A stretch of 33,189 nt of DNA, taken from the NCBI GenBank assembly GCA_030536615.1, contig JAUNPQ010000011.1:6888-40076 (forward strand), in the 5' to 3' direction. The DNA comes from Bacteroidales bacterium. Lineage in GTDB: Bacteria > Bacteroidota > Bacteroidia > Bacteroidales > Muribaculaceae. The notes below the pieces were generated by a model. It saw nothing but the letters and a program-made list of their open reading frames with translations. It was not told the DNA's origin and did no database searches. Position numbers and translations under genes: made by a program. Positions within the stretch are counted from its first letter, which is position 1, and each line of letters starts with the position of its first letter. Below are positions 487-11,668 of the stretch, in pieces.

Positions 487-2448
487 ATGACACCTGCTTG
501 TAATACATCGCATCAGTCCGAGCTGCGACGCCTCTCCCTGATGGGCGTCCTGGTGACACTTGGCATTGTTTTCGGCGATATCGGCACCTCACCGCTATAC
601 GTCATGAAGGCCATCACCGGCGTAAATCCAGGTTATGATCCGGATTATATCATCGGAGCGGTGTCGTGCGTGATCTGGACTCTGACCCTGCAGACCACTG
701 TAAAATACATCCTGATCGCACTGAATGCCAGCAACAAGGGTGAAGGCGGAATTCTGGCACTCTTTGCATTGCTGAGGAAACGCCATCGCAAATGGCTCTA
801 TATCATAGCCGCCACAGGAGCGGCAGCGCTCATTGCCGACGGTGTCATCACCCCCGCCATAACAGTGACGTCGGCCATCGAGGGGCTGGGCATCATAAAT
901 CCCAGCATACCGGTTGTCCCCATCGTCATAGCCATAATACTCTTTATCTTTATTCTGCAACAGGCCGGGACAAAAAAAATAGGACGATGTTTCGGCCCAT
1001 TCATGCTCCTGTGGTTTCTTATGCTGGGTGTCCTCGGCGCAGCCAACATAGGCAACAGCCCCATCATTCTCAAGGCCTTCAACCCATGGTATGCAGTCAG
1101 ACTCCTTGTGAGCTATCCCGGATGGTTCCTTGTACTCGGGGCTGTGTTCCTATGCACAACCGGTGCCGAAGCGCTTTATTCCGATCTGGGACATTGCGGC
1201 AGAAAGAACATCTCTGTCAGTTGGATATTTGTGAAAGTTATGCTGATCCTGAACTATCTGGGTCAGGGAGCATGGCTTGTAGCACACACAGGCACACCCC
1301 TCCCGGACACAAATCCATTCTATGCCATCATGCCGCACAGCATGGTGATAATAGGCGTGATAATGTCCACCGAAGCCGCCATAATAGCCAGTCAGGCATT
1401 GCTCAGCGGTTCATTCACCATATTTTCAGAGGCAATAAACCTCGGACTATGGCCATATCTGAAAATCAAATATCCCAGCAACGAAAAAGGACAGCTCTAC
1501 ATACCCGCCGTCAACTGGACTCTTTTGGCCGGCTGCCTTATAACCGTGGCCGTTTTCCGCGATTCAACCCGCATGGAAGCCGCCTATGGCCTGGCGATAA
1601 CAGTGGCCATGCTCATGACAACGGTGCTCCTGACTCTTTGGCTGCGCACACGAGGCTTGTCACGTACCGTATGCGGTCTCTTTCTTGTGTTCTTCACAAC
1701 GCTTGAGGGCATCTTCTTCGCAGCCAACATGTTCAAGTTCGTACATGGCGGATGGTTCTCCATCCTCATCACCGGTCTGGTGGGCGCCGTCATGATCATA
1801 TGGTTCAACGCCACAAAAGTACGTTCCCGCCTGCTGAAATACCGGCCACTGGCAGACTGCACAGACATGATCCGTGCCATCAGCAATGACACGGAAATAC
1901 CCAAGTATGCCTCAAACCTGATATACTTCAGCCGCTCACCGGAACCGGATCTTGTAGAGAGCAAGATCATATATTCCATTGTCAACAAACAGCCCAAACG
2001 TGCCGACCATTATTTCATCATCCGTCTCATCAGTGATGACGCTCCTGACACGCTCCAATATAACGTGAAAGACGTGGTGCCCGGTACAATATATCTTGTC
2101 ACCATGCGTTTCGGATTCAGAGTCAGTCCATTGATCAATATATATTTCAGACAGATTGTTGAAGACCTGGTTGCCGCCGGCAGACTTGACCTCACAAGCA
2201 CCTATCCCTCACTGAAAGCGAAACACATTCCGGGCGATTTCCGTTTTATCATCATCCGCAGGGTTTTCTCAACATCAAGCATCTGCAATCGCAGAGTCAC
2301 CATGCTCATGCAACTGCACAACATGCTCAGACACCTCGGCATCACAGATCAGGCAGCCATGTGCCTGGACACAAGTGTGGTGACCCAGGAAACCGTTCCG
2401 CTCATCATCAACACATCATCACCGCGCCGCATCACCCCTACGCCATAA
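487..2448 (+). CDS. kup: Potassium uptake protein Kup (KUP/HAK/KT family)
   Basis: This is a K+ importer of the inner membrane, taken to be a K+/H+ symporter as in the family. The family signature GDIGTSPLY is at about residues 30-38, and a conserved NKGEGGILALFALL stretch follows at about 84-97. About twelve hydrophobic segments fill the first 440 residues, followed by a soluble C-terminal domain, as in E. coli Kup. At 653 residues it is near family length. I chose the ATG at 487; a TTG four codons upstream at 475 is also in frame, but ATG is preferred and no Shine-Dalgarno is expected in this phylum. The gene stands alone between the barrel protein and a small acidic protein. I found no clear promoter match directly upstream. 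Confidence 0.95.
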   Translation: MTPACNTSHQSELRRLSLMGVLVTLGIVFGDIGTSPLYVMKAITGVNPGYDPDYIIGAVSCVIWTLTLQTTVKYILIALNASNKGEGGILALFALLRKRHRKWLYIIAATGAAALIADGVITPAITVTSAIEGLGIINPSIPVVPIVIAIILFIFILQQAGTKKIGRCFGPFMLLWFLMLGVLGAANIGNSPIILKAFNPWYAVRLLVSYPGWFLVLGAVFLCTTGAEALYSDLGHCGRKNISVSWIFVKVMLILNYLGQGAWLVAHTGTPLPDTNPFYAIMPHSMVIIGVIMSTEAAIIASQALLSGSFTIFSEAINLGLWPYLKIKYPSNEKGQLYIPAVNWTLLAGCLITVAVFRDSTRMEAAYGLAITVAMLMTTVLLTLWLRTRGLSRTVCGLFLVFFTTLEGIFFAANMFKFVHGGWFSILITGLVGAVMIIWFNATKVRSRLLKYRPLADCTDMIRAISNDTEIPKYASNLIYFSRSPEPDLVESKIIYSIVNKQPKRADHYFIIRLISDDAPDTLQYNVKDVVPGTIYLVTMRFGFRVSPLINIYFRQIVEDLVAAGRLDLTSTYPSLKAKHIPGDFRFIIIRRVFSTSSICNRRVTMLMQLHNMLRHLGITDQAAMCLDTSVVTQETVPLIINTSSPRRITPTP

Positions 2449-5970: not shown

Positions 5971-7562
5971 TGGGACACGGACCAAGCCCATTCACCAACA
6001 ACCGCCTTCTGGTATATAAACCGTGGGTGCCTCGACAGTTGCGTTTCTGGCTGATTATCATGTTCGCCTTTTTCTACCAATTGTCGGGAGGCGTGTATCT
6101 CGCTGCTCTGAGCCAGATGGTTGGTGAACTTTCCTTTATCAGCGAGGATGTGACTATGGCGGGTTATTGTTCACTCATCGGACTGAATATGATATTCCCG
6201 GTACTTTTCAGATGGAAATTCTACTTTTACAGCCGCCAGATGTGGTTCGTGTCCAGCATCGGTTCCATTATCTGTGCAATAGCCGCTCCATACTCCACAA
6301 TCCCATGGATTTTGTGGCTCGTATGCCTTTTCGCCGGATATTTCAAGATGATGGGAATGTTCGGGTGTATGAGTACAATTCAGTTGAATATCACGCCTAC
6401 CCGCAATTACGGCGTGTTCTTCCCCGTGGTATATATACTCGTCTGCGGGGCTATCCAGATTTCGGGATTGATGACGGCTTACATTTCATATGCTTACAAC
6501 TGGAAATATGTCTACCTCGTAATCGTGGGGCTTATGCTGGTTATAGACCTTATCGTTTATTTAATGATGAGTCATGACCACCGTGGCGCGCCGTTCATTC
6601 CGCTCAAGGGAGTGGACTGGACCGGACATATCCTATGGATTGCCACATGCTGCATCGCAACATGGATATTCAATTTCGGTGAGCATTACGACTGGTGGGA
6701 TAGCCGTGAGATCTGGTATGCGACATGGCTTTTCATTGCGGTGTTTGCCCTGACATTAATTGAATCGCACTATAAGAAAGAACCATTTATCTCGTTGAAG
6801 GCTTTTTGTTATCCCATAACATGGAAAGTCACGTTTGTGCTGTTGGGAATAGCAATTCTTCAGGCGTCGGCCCATGTATTGCAGCCCGTATTTATGAACG
6901 CGGTTGCCGGATACGACTGTTTCACCATCGTAAACTTCAATTATCCTGAGATTTACGGCATAATCATTGGGGCGGTGCTGACTTACTTCGCCCTTGTCAG
7001 ATGGAAATGGCGAATGAAAATATTTTTCTTCACCTGCTTTCTTCTGACCACATTCTACATTGTCGCATCCTATTTCCTTATCGACCCTTCAACGGATGCA
7101 TGGCAGTTTTATATCCCCTTGTTTGCTTTCGGGGCCGGCGAAGTAATGATGGAGGCAGGAGCCACTTATATTGTATGCCGCAACATTCCGTTTCAGTACA
7201 TGTTTATGAATATAGCCATTATCGGGTTTGCCCGCTGTGGTGTAGGGACAGCAGCTGCCGGTGCATTGGTGGAACGTATGTTCGCATGGGCTATGGATAA
7301 GAATGTAATGCTGACTTCTTCCGACATGACTCATTTAGGCAGCAATGGTGCCTCATGGTTCACGGAGTATTTCACCATGCAGAATATCATGCTTGCCGTC
7401 AAGGAATGTTACGGATATCTGATATTATTCGGCATATTGATGATGCTGACAATACTATTCGCACGCTTCAGCCCTTCCATGAACAGGATTTTGCCAACTA
7501 TGAGTGCTGCGGCACGTTGGATCCGCAATCCGCATGGCACAACAGACCCCACCCTCGGATAG
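5967..7562 (+). CDS. MFS efflux transporter, EmrB/DHA2-like, 14 membrane helices
   Basis: This inner-membrane drug/H+ antiporter-like pump has 531 residues and about fourteen hydrophobic segments, matching the 14-helix DHA2 arrangement that works with EmrA-type adaptors. The signature motifs of classical EmrB are weak: I do not see a clear GxLaDrxGrkxxl loop after helix 2, where the sequence reads FPVLFRWKFYFYSRQ. It looks like the divergent Bacteroidota branch of the family. A long soluble loop is present near residues 440-475. It starts in the ATGA overlap with the adaptor and ends the operon. The substrate is unknown; assignment to drugs, bile salts or fatty acids would be a guess. Confidence 0.85.
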   Translation: MMGHGPSPFTNNRLLVYKPWVPRQLRFWLIIMFAFFYQLSGGVYLAALSQMVGELSFISEDVTMAGYCSLIGLNMIFPVLFRWKFYFYSRQMWFVSSIGSIICAIAAPYSTIPWILWLVCLFAGYFKMMGMFGCMSTIQLNITPTRNYGVFFPVVYILVCGAIQISGLMTAYISYAYNWKYVYLVIVGLMLVIDLIVYLMMSHDHRGAPFIPLKGVDWTGHILWIATCCIATWIFNFGEHYDWWDSREIWYATWLFIAVFALTLIESHYKKEPFISLKAFCYPITWKVTFVLLGIAILQASAHVLQPVFMNAVAGYDCFTIVNFNYPEIYGIIIGAVLTYFALVRWKWRMKIFFFTCFLLTTFYIVASYFLIDPSTDAWQFYIPLFAFGAGEVMMEAGATYIVCRNIPFQYMFMNIAIIGFARCGVGTAAAGALVERMFAWAMDKNVMLTSSDMTHLGSNGASWFTEYFTMQNIMLAVKECYGYLILFGILMMLTILFARFSPSMNRILPTMSAAARWIRNPHGTTDPTLG

Positions 7563-7624
7563 ATGGAACGCCATAATCATACAACCTATAAAGAAACATA
7601 TTATGCTATAGTTTTGAATTTTTG

Positions 7625-7655
7625 TTTGCGGATTCACAGACATTTGCTAATTTTG
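7625..7655 (+). promoter_or_regulatory. Strong Bacteroidota promoter before the structured RNA
   Basis: TTTG at 7625-7628 and TAATTTTG at 7648-7655 are separated by 19 nt, a complete match to the phylum consensus. Predicted initiation is near 7662. This is the only good promoter between the efflux operon and the surface-protein genes. Confidence 0.75.
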
Positions 7656-7661
7656 CATTTG

Positions 7662-7975
7662 CAGACCGCAACGCAGAGGCCCGGTCAGGGTTGAAGCGGG
7701 AGGGCTCTGCAAAGACATTTTGAAAAGCGTTACTTGACGCTCTTTCTTGACTCTCAGAAATCTGGTAAATTTCACGCTTGGTCAGGACAAGAGACAGAGT
7801 GGACGTCTTTATGTGGATATGACTATACATGGTTGGTCCGGCACGCGAGTGTCGGATTTGACCGGATTATTCATATTCCGCGTGAGGCCTCTGCCTGTCC
7901 ATTCTACCAAGCATGGCATACCAGAGCCTCTGAGAGTGAGAACGGACAGAAAGTACGGCTCTCACGCTTTTTTCT
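7662..7975 (+). ncRNA. Probable structured RNA or long leader (about 310 nt)
   Basis: Between a full promoter and a U-tract this stretch is packed with hairpins. GCAGAG+CCC (7673-7682) pairs with GGG+CTCTGC (7702-7710). AGCGT (7726-7730) pairs with ACGCT (7737-7741). TCCGGCAC (7837-7844) pairs with GTGTCGGA (7849-7856) around a GCGA tetraloop of the GNRA type. GAGGC+TCTG (7884-7893) pairs with CAGA+GCCTC (7922-7930) with one bulged C. GCGTGAGG (7880-7887) can pair with TCTCACGC (7960-7967) just before TTTTTTCTTTT. Two overlapping ORFs (7734-7991 and 7747-8013, the latter from TTG) cross it, but both read through the stem and U-tract and look incidental. It could be a free small RNA or a cis leader for the gene at 8025. 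I cannot name an RNA family; it does not fit tmRNA or RNase P. Confidence 0.55.
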
Positions 7976-7977
7976 TT
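7880..7977 (+). terminator. Intrinsic terminator or attenuator of the structured RNA
   Basis: An 8-bp stem, GCGTGAGG (7880-7887) with TCTCACGC (7960-7967), or a shorter local stem, GTGAGA (7936-7941) with TCTCAC (7960-7965), is followed directly by a run of ten U with one C. The two stems share the same 3' strand and exclude each other. The next gene starts 48 nt after the U-tract, so it may act as an attenuator. Confidence 0.5.
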
Positions 7978-8024
7978 TATTCGCCTCGTAAGGGAGCACA
8001 GAGGTGCATTTAGTAATTGCCCGT

Positions 8025-8561
8025 ATGACGATTGATACGCACTCTTTCAGACCCCGCTGGCTGATCCCTGTTTTTTTGCTGTGTGTGCCAGCGCTGTGCG
8101 CTGCCGAGAATCCCGGGGAAATTCCCTGCATTGTGTTTTCCGGAAATTCCGAAAAGGAGCACAACTTTGACCTCTCCAAGTACAACCGCATCTATCTTAA
8201 TGAATCATCATTTTCAGTCACATCATCATCGCCTGATGCTGAGACGGTTGAATTGCTCTATGACCTTGTCCATCACATTGAATTCAAACAGGCCATTCCC
8301 TCTTTTTCTATGATAGCCGATGTCACAGCCGATGCTGTATCAAGCCTGCAGTATCATGATGACAGCCGTTCACTGGTGGTGAGAAGTGATGAAGATTCAG
8401 AATTTACCGTCGGTGTGTTTGGGGTGTCTGGCCAACTTATGGCATCAACAAATGTAAGAACCGATGAGGCTTTCAGACTTGAATCCCTGATGCCCGGAAT
8501 ATATGTGGCTGTGGCCACTGATGGTAAAACAAAACTCACTTTAAAATTCATCCTGTCATGA
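8025..8561 (+). CDS. Small exported protein with T9SS-like C-terminal tail
   Basis: This 178-residue protein begins with a Sec signal peptide (MTIDTHSFRPRW, then a hydrophobic stretch ending near CAA-ENPGE). The middle has alternating short strands such as IPCIVFSGN and VELLYDLVHHIEF, a pattern I associate with short Bacteroidales surface proteins. The last 70 residues (FTVGVFGVSGQLMAS, then LMPGIYVAVATDGKTKLTLKF in part) resemble a type A sorting domain of the type IX secretion system, ending KLTLKFILS. I chose ATG 8025 over the upstream GTG 8004 because it places the signal peptide correctly. It overlaps the next gene by 4 bp (ATGA), so the two are probably co-expressed and act at the cell surface. 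Exact role unknown. Confidence 0.65.
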   Translation: MTIDTHSFRPRWLIPVFLLCVPALCAAENPGEIPCIVFSGNSEKEHNFDLSKYNRIYLNESSFSVTSSSPDAETVELLYDLVHHIEFKQAIPSFSMIADVTADAVSSLQYHDDSRSLVVRSDEDSEFTVGVFGVSGQLMASTNVRTDEAFRLESLMPGIYVAVATDGKTKLTLKFILS

Positions 8562-11500
8562 AAAAATCAACAGTCAACAAACTTGTCATATGCTGTCTTT
8601 TGTCCATGAGCGCCATTTTTGCGACAGCAATGCAGGACAAAGTCCTGCAGATATTCAAAGACGGCAAGGTTATCAAGGAATATCCTGTTTCCGAAATAGA
8701 CTATATAGAAGTCAACAACACCGTGGAAGCGCCCACGGGAATAAATGCGGTTGTTGACCGTAATCAGATCACAATTTCCTGGACCGGAGTTGACAATGCC
8801 ACCTACAACGTCTATCGGTCAGCCGACAACGTGAATTTCGAATTGCTTGCATCAGGACTTGACGAAACGGAATACACAGACACCAAACCGTTTGCCGGCG
8901 CAAATTACTATAAAGTCTCCGCCTGCATCAACGGTATGGAGAGCAACTGCTCATCAACCGTAGCCGGCACCGTAATCGCTGACGGGTCCGACCATGGATT
9001 CTACCTTGGAATCATAGGTTTCAACAATGAACTCTATACCTACCCGATCAGATATCTCTCTGAAAGTTCGGCACAAGGATATTATTCCTTTATCGACGGC
9101 CTTACAACAGAAAACGGAACAGTGTTGTATTATGGCGTGGACAAATCAATTGACAATCTTCAGGCAGCCGCATATCCGGACAATCTGCACGATGTGGCCA
9201 TACTGACGTTCACTGACGGACTTGATGAAGGTTCTTTGGATGAGACATCCTACCTGACCCTACCTGAATATCTGACAGCATTGAACAAACGTCTGACAAC
9301 AGAAACTGTTTCAGAGCAGAAAATGACCTCATACACCATTGGCCTGATAGGTAAAAGCGTCACCAACCTCACCCAGTTCAAGAAAAACCTCAGAGATCTG
9401 GCCACCTCGCCCGACAATGTGTTTGAAGTGTCGAACATGGCGGAAGTGAACGAAGTGTTCCAGAAAATCGCCGATTTCCTGAGCGAGACAAAATACGTCC
9501 AGAAATTCCTACTGACAATCAAAGGTCCCTCGCATAATGAGAAATGTCGCTTTACATTTGATAATGTCACTTCCTATAGTTCATCGCGCCAATACATTGA
9601 AGGAACTTTCAACCGCATAGACAAAACTCTGACCGATATAAAATATGTGGGACTCACTTCAACTTCAGGCTCTGTTGTCCCCGGAGTTTTTGACGAAAAA
9701 AAATTCTATAATTTCACCTTTGAAGGTCTGCAGTCTCTGGACGGGGAAAAAATCCCCATTGACCACGTACAGCACTGGCGTACAGAGGGAGGTGTCTGGG
9801 AAAAAGATATAGAGTATACTTTTGACCCCGGAAAAGCAGGAATTGAGAAAATCAAGCGCTCGGCAGCCATCATGCTCAACCTTGACTGCTCAAGCTCACT
9901 GGGTGACAAGGATTTCGCCCTATTGAAAGAGAACGCCAAGACATTTATCAGGAAATTGATTGAAAACGCGGTTGATCCTTCAGAGGTCGCATCCATAAGC
10001 CTTGACAGAACAGCGGTTTCACTGGCCGTCGGCAATACCGTGACACTGAAAGCCACTGTCCTCCCCGTTACAGCCAAACTGAAAGATGTGCAATGGTCAT
10101 CAACCAATCCGGAAGTAGCGACTGTTGATGAAAAAAGCGGCATTGTCACGGCCCATAAACCCGGAAGCGCGACGATCATCGCCCGGACGGTTGACGGCGG
10201 ATATACCGCCTCGTGCCAGATATCAGTGATCATTCCCGTGTCAACGATAACATTAAACAGCGCATCTGAAGCTGCCTACATTGGCGAGACACTCACACTC
10301 GCCGCGACAGTCCACCCTGAGAATGCCACAGACAAAAGTCTTATATGGACAAGTTCAAACACATCAGTCGCAACAGTAACCAAAAACGGCAAAATCATCC
10401 CCCTCTCAGCCGGCCAGACCGTCATAAAGGCAACTGCCAATGATGGCCACGGTGCAAATGCCACATGCACTGTCAGGATATTACAACATGTGGGCTCAGT
10501 AGACCTTGACCACAAAGCGCTTACACTGAACATCGGAGCCTCCCGACAACTCAAAGCAACCGTAAGCCCTGATAACGCCTCAGATAAAACTGTGACCTGG
10601 TCTTCTTCAGACACCCGTGTCGCGACCGTTGACAACAACGGCCTTGTCAAAGCCATTTCCAGAGGCAGCGCACGCATAACTGCAACAAGCAAGGAGGGCA
10701 ACAAAACCGCAGCGTGTGAGGTTGAAGTCAGACAATTTGTCGAAAAAATAGTCATTGACAAACCGACGGCATCCCTGAACATCGGCGAATCCCTCCAACT
10801 CACAGCGGCTATAAATCCCGCAGATGCTGACAACAAAACCATCAAATGGTCAATTTCCGATCCATCAATAGCCTCCGTCAGTCAGAATGGCCTTGTTCAG
10901 GGCGTGACTCCCGGCTCCGCAACTATTACCGTTGCGGCTCAGGACGGTTCAGGAGTGAAAGCCACAAGCACCGTTACTGTCAGACGGCCCGTCACAGCTA
11001 TCAGCTTGAATTCCAGCTCTCTTAACCTTGATTTGGGAAATACCGGCACATTGTCAGTGGTGCTGACACCTGAAAATGCATCAAACACCGATTTCGCCGT
11101 CGAGAGTTCAAACACATCAGTCGCAACAGTAACCAAAAACGGCAGAACAATATCTGTAAAAACTGTCGGCATAGGGACATCAACCATCACAGTCTCCTCT
11201 CAGGACGGCAATCACACAGCGACATGCAATGTCACAGTCTCACTTTCCCGGACACCCGCAAATTTAGCGCTGGCCATTAAAAAAGGCGGGGTCAGGTACT
11301 ATATCCCTGAATCTGTCTACAGCTCCGACATCATGCCTGTCGGATACACCAAAGAAGGTGTCACGGTCAGCAACGGTACAACCACCTTTGTTTTGGCGCT
11401 CAATGACGCCACAAGCGCAACAAAAACATTCAGTGAGGCCAACGCCCTCGGCACATTGCCCACCAATACGCAGGGGAATGTGATTTCTCAATACTGGTCA

Positions 11501-11668
11501 GCAATATCCGCCGCAGCAACCAAGTACGGAGGCACAGCACTGAAATCAAGCAATTACTGGACAAGCACTTCCAGTGGCACCGGCAGCACCGCATATGTCT
11601 ACCACCCGGGAGGAGTCGGCAGCGTCCACACCTCCAGAACCTACTACGTCCGCTGCATAGTCCGCTAA
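8558..11668 (+). CDS. Large surface protein: FN3, VWA-like, five Big_2 repeats, FISUMP-like end
   Basis: This 1036-residue protein has a Sec signal peptide (about 1-24), then a short VLQIFKDGKVIKEYPVSEIDY motif region typical of Bacteroidales surface proteins. An FN3-like domain covers about 54-135. A VWA-like domain begins near 147 with GFYLGIIGFNNEL in place of the usual DxSxS, continues with a Thr-containing ENGTVLYYGVD near 186 and FTDGLDEGS near 218, and is followed by a beta-rich part. A separate DCSSSLG motif, like a metal-site strand, appears near 445. Five Big_2 Ig-like domains of about 84 residues cover about 476-895. The end contains NYWTSTSSG and YYVRCIVR, as in FISUMP/DUF1566-like domains. 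No lipobox is seen. It is likely an exported adhesin-like or structural protein; the ligand is unknown. It is coupled to the gene before it by a 4-bp overlap. Confidence 0.75.
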   Translation: MKKSTVNKLVICCLLSMSAIFATAMQDKVLQIFKDGKVIKEYPVSEIDYIEVNNTVEAPTGINAVVDRNQITISWTGVDNATYNVYRSADNVNFELLASGLDETEYTDTKPFAGANYYKVSACINGMESNCSSTVAGTVIADGSDHGFYLGIIGFNNELYTYPIRYLSESSAQGYYSFIDGLTTENGTVLYYGVDKSIDNLQAAAYPDNLHDVAILTFTDGLDEGSLDETSYLTLPEYLTALNKRLTTETVSEQKMTSYTIGLIGKSVTNLTQFKKNLRDLATSPDNVFEVSNMAEVNEVFQKIADFLSETKYVQKFLLTIKGPSHNEKCRFTFDNVTSYSSSRQYIEGTFNRIDKTLTDIKYVGLTSTSGSVVPGVFDEKKFYNFTFEGLQSLDGEKIPIDHVQHWRTEGGVWEKDIEYTFDPGKAGIEKIKRSAAIMLNLDCSSSLGDKDFALLKENAKTFIRKLIENAVDPSEVASISLDRTAVSLAVGNTVTLKATVLPVTAKLKDVQWSSTNPEVATVDEKSGIVTAHKPGSATIIARTVDGGYTASCQISVIIPVSTITLNSASEAAYIGETLTLAATVHPENATDKSLIWTSSNTSVATVTKNGKIIPLSAGQTVIKATANDGHGANATCTVRILQHVGSVDLDHKALTLNIGASRQLKATVSPDNASDKTVTWSSSDTRVATVDNNGLVKAISRGSARITATSKEGNKTAACEVEVRQFVEKIVIDKPTASLNIGESLQLTAAINPADADNKTIKWSISDPSIASVSQNGLVQGVTPGSATITVAAQDGSGVKATSTVTVRRPVTAISLNSSSLNLDLGNTGTLSVVLTPENASNTDFAVESSNTSVATVTKNGRTISVKTVGIGTSTITVSSQDGNHTATCNVTVSLSRTPANLALAIKKGGVRYYIPESVYSSDIMPVGYTKEGVTVSNGTTTFVLALNDATSATKTFSEANALGTLPTNTQGNVISQYWSAISAAATKYGGTALKSSNYWTSTSSGTGSTAYVYHPGGVGSVHTSRTYYVRCIVR
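9986..11241 (+). repeat. Five Big_2-coding direct repeats of about 250 bp
   Basis: Units begin at about 9986, 10238, 10491, 10738 and 10990. Each encodes a domain starting V-x-x-I-x-L/I, with a central W/V-x-S-S-x-x-x-VATV core and a C-A/E-V-x-V end. Most units are diverged at DNA level, but 40 nt are identical between unit 2 (10352-10391) and unit 5 (11105-11144). Confidence 0.8.

Follow-up and report, generated by a model that had tools for sequence, protein, structure and literature searches.

The stretch of DNA analysed here (33,189 nucleotides (nt) of contig JAUNPQ010000011.1, assembly GCA_030536615.1, from a member of the Muribaculaceae labelled Bacteroidales bacterium; hereafter the window) carries, at positions 7625-8005, a Bacteroidota promoter followed by a 5' domain, a rod of ~250 nt capped by a GNRA tetraloop, a U-tract and then a hairpin. 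The loop of this hairpin, which can pair back across the U-tract, lies 27 nt 5' of the ATG of the first of two operon genes (Table 1). A sequence-only reading of the window had proposed a structured RNA at 7625-7977, taken to be a transcript of ~310 nt running from a full promoter to a terminator-like end and encoding no convincing protein. The structured RNA itself was borne out, as (i) the 317 nt at 7661-7977 fold at -130.9 kcal/mol, against -95.0 +/- 4.8 kcal/mol for shuffled sequences (z -7.42; 0 of 100 as low), and (ii) the family to which it belongs shows covariation, which is described below in detail. The idea of a separate transcript did not hold equally well. By eye, the element in the window runs beyond 7977: a hairpin follows at about 7983-8005, and its loop is able to pair with 7958-7963. 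As this conserved pairing crosses the U-tract, the picture of a stand-alone RNA of ~310 nt is incomplete. We are nearly certain that this is a genuine leader RNA with a conserved structure.

The promoter comprises TTTG at 7625-7628 and, after 19 nt, TAATTTTG at 7648-7655; we take the TTTG-N19 portion to be of the Bacteroidota type. Of 97 copies looked at, 59 had a recognisable 5' domain, and the TAnnTTTG motif lies 5' of it in 55 of these; shuffled sequences gave 0.9. A passage of PMC9723704 names TAnnTTTG as the -7 box. As to coding capacity, two frames overlap the RNA, 7734-7991 and 7747-8013 (85 and 88 amino acids), and a protein-coding reading of them was rejected: neither matched a Pfam family at E 0.001 in a look for leader peptides confined to these two frames, and the core lengths of 92 long copies fall into all three modulo-3 classes (38, 31 and 23). 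The core measures about 226-306 nt in this long form.

Table 1. Parts of the leader and the two genes behind it, in window positions
Feature	Position	Strand	Remark
Promoter TTTG-N19-TAnnTTTG, presumed Bacteroidota type	7625..7655	+	read in sequence
5' domain, helix GACCG 7664-7668 : CGGTC 7682-7686	7661..7706	+	
Possible pseudoknot within 5' domain, CCC 7680-7682 : GGG 7688-7690		+	
Rod base, 5' strand GAAAAGCG, partner 7965-7972	7722..7729	+	92.2% of cells paired
S1, 5' rod strands 7750-7758, 7761-7767, 7772-7773, 7777-7782	7750..7782	+	
a5, 5' partner of segment b in rod state	7786..7796	+	96.0% paired
Apical hairpin, GNRA tetraloop GCGA 7845-7848, stem 7837-7844 : 7849-7856	7837..7856	+	
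X block GCGTGAG, 5' strand of terminator helix T; opposite 5' rod sequence in other state	7880..7886	+	
Segment b, pairs with b' (terminator state) or a5 (rod state)	7895..7904	+	
S1, 3' rod strands	7906..7937	+	covariation
Segment b'	7940..7949	+	covariation
Tail GGCTCTCACGC	7957..7967	+	covariation, loop swaps
U-tract	7968..7977	+	sequence
P3 hairpin, 7983-7987 : 8001-8005, loop GGGAGC 7992-7997 able to pair with tail (PK2)	7983..8005	+	
First downstream gene, 178 amino acids from ATG 8025, signal-peptide-like start (by eye), no Pfam family	8025..8561	+	
Second operon gene, Big_2 and VWA domains	8558..11668	+	

The strongest evidence comes from covariation among 69 long copies (seven of 76 were dropped), in which we assessed the rod helix S1 together with the two helices crossing it, T (X block with tail) and b (segment b with b'). 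For S1, T and b combined, 98.4% of 2818 cells were paired (shuffled, 83.0%), versions slid out of register reached at most 43.8%, and double changes numbered 463 against 145.5 in shuffled alignments. The proportions were 94.6-100% for S1, with double changes at 15 of 24 pairs, 99.4% for T and 98.8% for b. Helix T alone paired at 714 of 728 positions in 104 copies (best of 2000 shuffles, 695) and at 592 of 595 in the 85 long copies (best shuffle, 585). An alignment of 26 copies found by blastn gave compensating changes at 31 of 79 predicted pairs, so that the covariation proposed as a check of the RNA is found in both sets. S1, T and b contain 186 G-U cells but only 8 A-C cells, which puts the selection on the plus-strand RNA.

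The hairpin formed by T and b adjoins the U-tract directly and amounts to -36.9 kcal/mol in the window, and in 66 of 69 copies five or more of the 8 nt that follow the tail helix are U; the sequence-only reading was right about the terminator-like end. A hairpin with a U-tract in the manner of an intrinsic terminator is what an attenuator leader should contain, and so is an alternative pairing that also covaries, which was found as well, although their mutual exclusion in space is our inference. The pairings that complete the rod are weaker yet real: of 3065 cells 93.1% were paired (90.7% after shuffling), and double changes came to 86 where shuffles gave 32.5. They covary at the rod base, where column pair 5-308 is AU in 54 copies and UA in nine, and between a5 and b, where each of two pairs shows 20 double changes. 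The combinations of b/a5/b' in the 69 copies were AG/CT/AG (25), GA/TC/GG (13), AG/CT/GG (8), GA/TC/GA (5) and rarer ones (18). Changes in segment b are thus matched in a5 as well as in b', a mark of two alternative shapes. The tail just 5' of the U-tract has three competing partners, namely the rod base (through 7965-7967), the upstream block of the terminator hairpin (as the 3' strand of helix T, 7961-7967) and the downstream loop (pseudoknot PK2, 7958-7963). Because the tail and segment b can each pair in more than one way, the shapes compete.

The rod tip, examined in the 69 copies by a simple stem rule, is a GNRA tetraloop in 46, another loop in 13 and without a stem of at least four pairs in ten, in agreement with the GNRA loop on an 8-bp stem read earlier from the window. 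The helix of the 5' domain recurs by eye, uncounted, at the equivalent position in other copies as GCATATCG...CGATATG and CGTCG...CGACG; no 5' domain was seen by eye in short forms. Two small hairpins stay outside our claim: the local 5' hairpin TTCTTGAC:GTCAAGAA was 97.5% paired, but 60 of 500 shuffles were as high and our scan pattern had fixed most bases of its 5' strand, and AGCGT:ACGCT lacked any double change. As a separate observation, S1 types such as TCTGGTA/TACCAGA, CCTGGAA/TTCCAGG and CTTCGCA/TGCGAAG (alignment columns 42-48 / 255-261, by eye) are shared between genomes in a manner resembling module swaps.

The tail motif GGCTCTC can pair with a hairpin loop that usually lies some 15-35 nt downstream. 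In the 50 long copies with variant tails, PK2 scored 15.80 with the copy's own loop and 12.29 with swapped loops (best of 300 swaps, 13.25), and in 13 short copies 16.02 against 13.56 (0 of 300). Thirty distant members were grouped by eye according to the distance of the start codon, and in nine of these the script found no tail. PK2 was found in those with a near start codon (11 of 15 analysed; 16.44 vs 13.04, 0 of 300) and was not found in those with a far first sizeable open reading frame (ORF; 10 of 14 analysed; 11.44 vs 11.21, 72 of 300), many of which, by eye, stand before TonB/SusC-like receptors. PK2 thus seems to go together with a near start codon; the distance from its strand to the start codon was 18-31 nt in 42 of the 57 copies passing the filter. 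The stem of the P3 hairpin, at five or more pairs under a loose rule, occurred in 37 of 57 real copies and 630 of 1140 shuffled ones, not clearly above shuffles, and is suggested, by eye, by the aligned GCC...GGC and by distant copies.

The genes behind the RNA are arranged in a way that fits a leader. Among 76 copies, the nearest ORF within 330 nt downstream was co-directional in 65 and opposed in three, with none in eight (i.e., 65 of 68 co-directional), whereas the nearest upstream ORF was on the plus strand in 27, on the minus strand in 27 and absent in 22. The first plus-strand ORF started 42-65 nt from the match end in 43 of 67 copies. The first genes are diverse: the 55 of 67 scanned included BspA-type leucine-rich repeats (10) and a PD-(D/E)XK family (2), the rest being mostly single matches, and 31 scanned second genes of 38 included LRR_5 (8) and Big_2 (5). 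By a crude criterion, an exported product seems likely for 37 of the 61 first genes and 23 of the 36 second genes, against 96 of 292 other ORFs of the loci (Fisher's test for first genes, p 7e-5). Homologues of the first gene of the window occurred in seven non-self places; the three with the best E-values (47, 44 and 34% identity) are directly preceded by the RNA. The gene behind the second copy in the window's genome has homologues in two other genomes, in one of which the RNA stands upstream.

With blastn, 44 of 99 genomes, counting the window's own, showed relatives of the RNA, and a single one of these genomes lies outside Muribaculaceae. A covariance model of the long form built from the 26-copy alignment, R1, matched 111 of 118 Muribaculaceae genomes of at least 95% completeness (own included), covering all 20 genera, with 1 to 16 matches per genome; the high counts are lower bounds because at most 16 candidates were scored in each. 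Across the order, with six candidates scored per genome, R1 matched 73 of 295 genomes, five of them Muribaculaceae, and among these matches was a short form of 171-192 nt, whose model, R2, matched 64 of 392 genomes drawn from the phylum. A sequence-pattern scan of titled genomes gave at least 119 stretches, and R1 matched 77 of the 80 taken, in some cases only in part because the contig or stretch ended; the titles among the 80 matches listed were Muribaculaceae, Duncaniella, Muribaculum, Amulumruptor, Bacteroides sp., Porphyromonadaceae, Bacteroidales, Lachnospiraceae and others. In the window's own genome, where 150 of 464 candidates were scored, two copies are clear and a third match is weak (23.5 bits).

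Several copies deserve separate mention. Long-form copies lie in records titled Lachnospiraceae and Pseudoflavonifractor (L070, L077, L091 and L108), assemblies that may be mislabelled. Copies reduced to a recognisable 5' arm with other sequence behind it, as in truncation or rearrangement, lie in L062 (about 6842-7015) and in L099 (about 2456-2494), and a pattern match in Marinifilum flexuosum (L097) was due to chance, no RNA being detected there even with filters off. L082 holds two near-alike copies in the same direction, 4 kilobases apart (2023-2293 and 6141-6411), with a third on that contig (L104), probably a duplicated leader-plus-gene unit. At L059 the core (1820-2089, minus strand) is followed after 34 nt, instead of by hairpin and gene, by an opposite-strand ORF of 352 amino acids which, judged from its start, presumably resembles an IS110-type transposase. 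A phage or plasmid origin was rejected, as phage and plasmid collections gave no match at E 1e-5. One of two pattern scans of viral contigs gave a match, once: in the viral-collection contig L225 the pattern lies at the edge (27-58) and, by eye, a tyrosine-recombinase-like ORF at 230-1183, so the leader may travel on integrating elements.

The earlier suggestion to compare the RNA with Rfam was followed, and no family of Rfam 15 matched it at gathering score in the window or in 52 loci scanned (two places occur twice among the latter, and L160 holds only a weak copy). The matches at these loci were tRNA and, beside one copy, DUF805 RNA (RF03081): at L180 the copy at 1001-1176 is followed within 40 nt by DUF805 RNA at 1215-1280, with a second DUF805 RNA at 2179-2247, and the two families may share a leader. 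With the threshold relaxed to E 10, positions 7500-8100 of the window gave four sub-threshold matches, the best of 15.2 bits, and seven loci gave nothing up to E 0.5. We found no description of the RNA in the open-access literature, a scope of articles exclusive of their supplements. The portions covered of PMC8040213, PMC9723704, PMC11109978 and PMC2864571 do not describe it, and its terms do not occur in the portion covered of PMC8632094. Nevertheless, members of the family may be present among unnamed candidates in supplementary tables, such as the 64 structured 5' regions of PMC9723704.

We consider a 5' leader acting in cis more plausible than a separate transcript because a pairing crosses the U-tract, the distance to the start codon is near-constant, co-direction is confined to the downstream side and linkage to the gene is kept in some cases. 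Sequence comparison shows a rod built from S1, an alternative terminator-shaped hairpin of X and b with b' and tail, and a pseudoknot between tail and loop. The best reading is that the leader controls read-through and/or translation of the gene behind it, and we put a cis-acting regulatory leader with a terminator/rod switch as its mechanism at a probability of roughly 60%. With the competing helices demonstrated by covariation, an order of events, termination, an effect on translation and a signal can be proposed as follows. Transcription would begin at the RNA's own promoter ahead of the downstream gene. As the 5' arm of S1 is made first, the rod can form first: the arm would be ready when its 3' strands appear, and the rod would then hold b, the X block and the tail. 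In this state the polymerase would pass the U-tract, and the pseudoknot, closing about 20-30 nt before the start codon, could also set translation. If a signal delays or melts the rod, b, b', X and tail would instead form the terminator, and transcription would stop at about 7977, a short terminated transcript being the expected OFF product. A shared signal (ligand, protein or ribosome state) might thereby shift the balance and set the dose of scattered, often exported or accessory proteins.

A number of observations weigh against this switch. In all but one of 69 copies S1 is part of the minimum-energy fold, and the median advantage of the rod over the terminator fold is 13.1 kcal/mol (range -21.1 to 36.2), so that, with the rod energetically favoured, the terminator would need kinetics or a factor. 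S1 and T+b might coexist in one knotted fold, which we hold less likely because, as we read the alignment, the linkers between them are very short. Since PK2 lies after the U-tract, it cannot itself decide termination, and some U-tracts are interrupted. As for the statistics, further pair types (65 vs 66.6 shuffled) were the one of five measures not above shuffles. In the 19 copies shorter than 250 nt helix T was weaker: 122 of 133 pairs form, the best shuffle also reaches 122, and 8 of 2000 shuffles equal the real copies (14 of 2000 among their ten distinct combinations). Where the tail is of the commonest type (40 long copies), PK2 adds no support (15.83 vs 15.93 swapped; 256 of 300), as expected because the tails are alike. 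The S1 counts in the 80 loci are partly selected, since the scan pattern fixed part of the 5' arm; the 26-copy blastn set is free of that selection. Finally, at four of the seven places with a homologue of the first gene the RNA was not matched. One of these homologues has 38% identity and an E-value close to that of the third best, and at one of the four places the contig ends too early to tell.

Other explanations account for part of these data. If one small molecule or one second messenger is bound by the conserved internal region and the 5' domain, and the same terminator/rod switch is set in this way, the RNA is a ligand riboswitch. Its anatomy is that of an expression platform, and many copies per genome stand before diverse, often exported genes, a spread resembling that of the genes under c-di-GMP riboswitches. 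However, the downstream genes scanned have no pathway theme and the RNA exceeds the size of most riboswitches; we hold this explanation less likely than not. We regard as unlikely a stand-alone noncoding RNA of ~310 nt that ends at the U-tract and acts in trans; it would fit the RNA's own promoter, terminator-like end and stable rod, as well as the ten distant members analysed with a far next sizeable ORF, where PK2 was not found. It leaves unaccounted for the crossing of the U-tract by PK2, the near-constant, co-directional gene spacing and the leader-gene linkage kept in some diverged homologues.

Like EAR and put, the RNA might instead promote processive antitermination, modifying the polymerase so that long surface-protein operons are read to the end, and a large structured leader before operons of large exported proteins would suit such a role. 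Nevertheless, a terminator and a pseudoknot adjacent to the start codon would be superfluous for it, and several of the targets are short genes with no second gene close behind in the same direction; we find it improbable. Most improbable is a mobile DNA hairpin (a miniature inverted-repeat transposable element (MITE) or attC-like site) capturing diverse genes. Multiple copies, a long inverted repeat, diverse neighbours and the copy beside a tyrosine-recombinase-like ORF on a viral-collection fragment would be in its favour, whereas G-U exceeds A-C by 186 : 8, which does not point to selection at the level of DNA, and the promoter, the spacing and direction relative to the start codon and the gene linkage are kept.

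Returning to the cis-acting leader, it is attractive to speculate that the RNA senses a signal throughout the phylum in two layers, the terminator/rod switch setting transcription and the pseudoknot on the start-codon side setting translation; we offer this extended version tentatively, at somewhat less than even odds. If it is true, most Muribaculaceae and many further Bacteroidota would use one shared signal to tune a scattered, fast-changing set of accessory and exported proteins. It would be a regulatory layer absent from current annotation, in nearly every sampled genome of a major gut family and often in multiple copies, and the RNA family would show directly which surface proteins are regulated together in bacteria that do not lend themselves easily to study.

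Among known systems, the translational riboswitches preQ1-II and SAM-II also have a pseudoknot just upstream of the start codon; here, unlike in these, the partner is the tail of a terminator-like hairpin, and the RNA has no Rfam match. To our knowledge, Bacteroidota lack Shine-Dalgarno sites, so masking of such a site is not an obvious mechanism, and the leader may offer an entry to the control of expression by RNA shape in bacteria that, as far as we know, do without Shine-Dalgarno initiation. Flavobacterium psychrophilum is said to lack these sites in a passage of PMC9723704. The RNA shares with the motifs of Weinberg 2010 that they are structured RNAs of Bacteroidetes. The five of them with Rfam accessions in Table 1 of that paper (Bacteroidales-1, Bacteroides-1, Flavo-1, Bacteroid-trp and 6S-flavo) did not, however, reach threshold at the scanned loci; Bacteroides-2 and GUCCY-hairpin have no accession in that table, and Bacteroides-2 reportedly occurs in a single sequenced organism.

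OLE, ROOL and GOLLD, which are stand-alone RNAs, are likewise long, highly structured and poorly understood, whereas this RNA looks like a cis leader. Large ornate RNAs form multimers, according to a passage of PMC12286853. The closest resemblance in design is to attenuation leaders and riboswitch expression platforms, with which the RNA shares a 5' leader, alternative pairings, of which one is an intrinsic-terminator hairpin, and covariation of both shapes. It differs from them in its core of about 226-306 nt, its GNRA-capped rod, a pseudoknot that spans the terminator towards the start codon, its diverse targets and its lack of a known ligand. Relative to the models of Rfam 15, the RNA is a new family, and it stands out by an unusual three-way competition for one strand.
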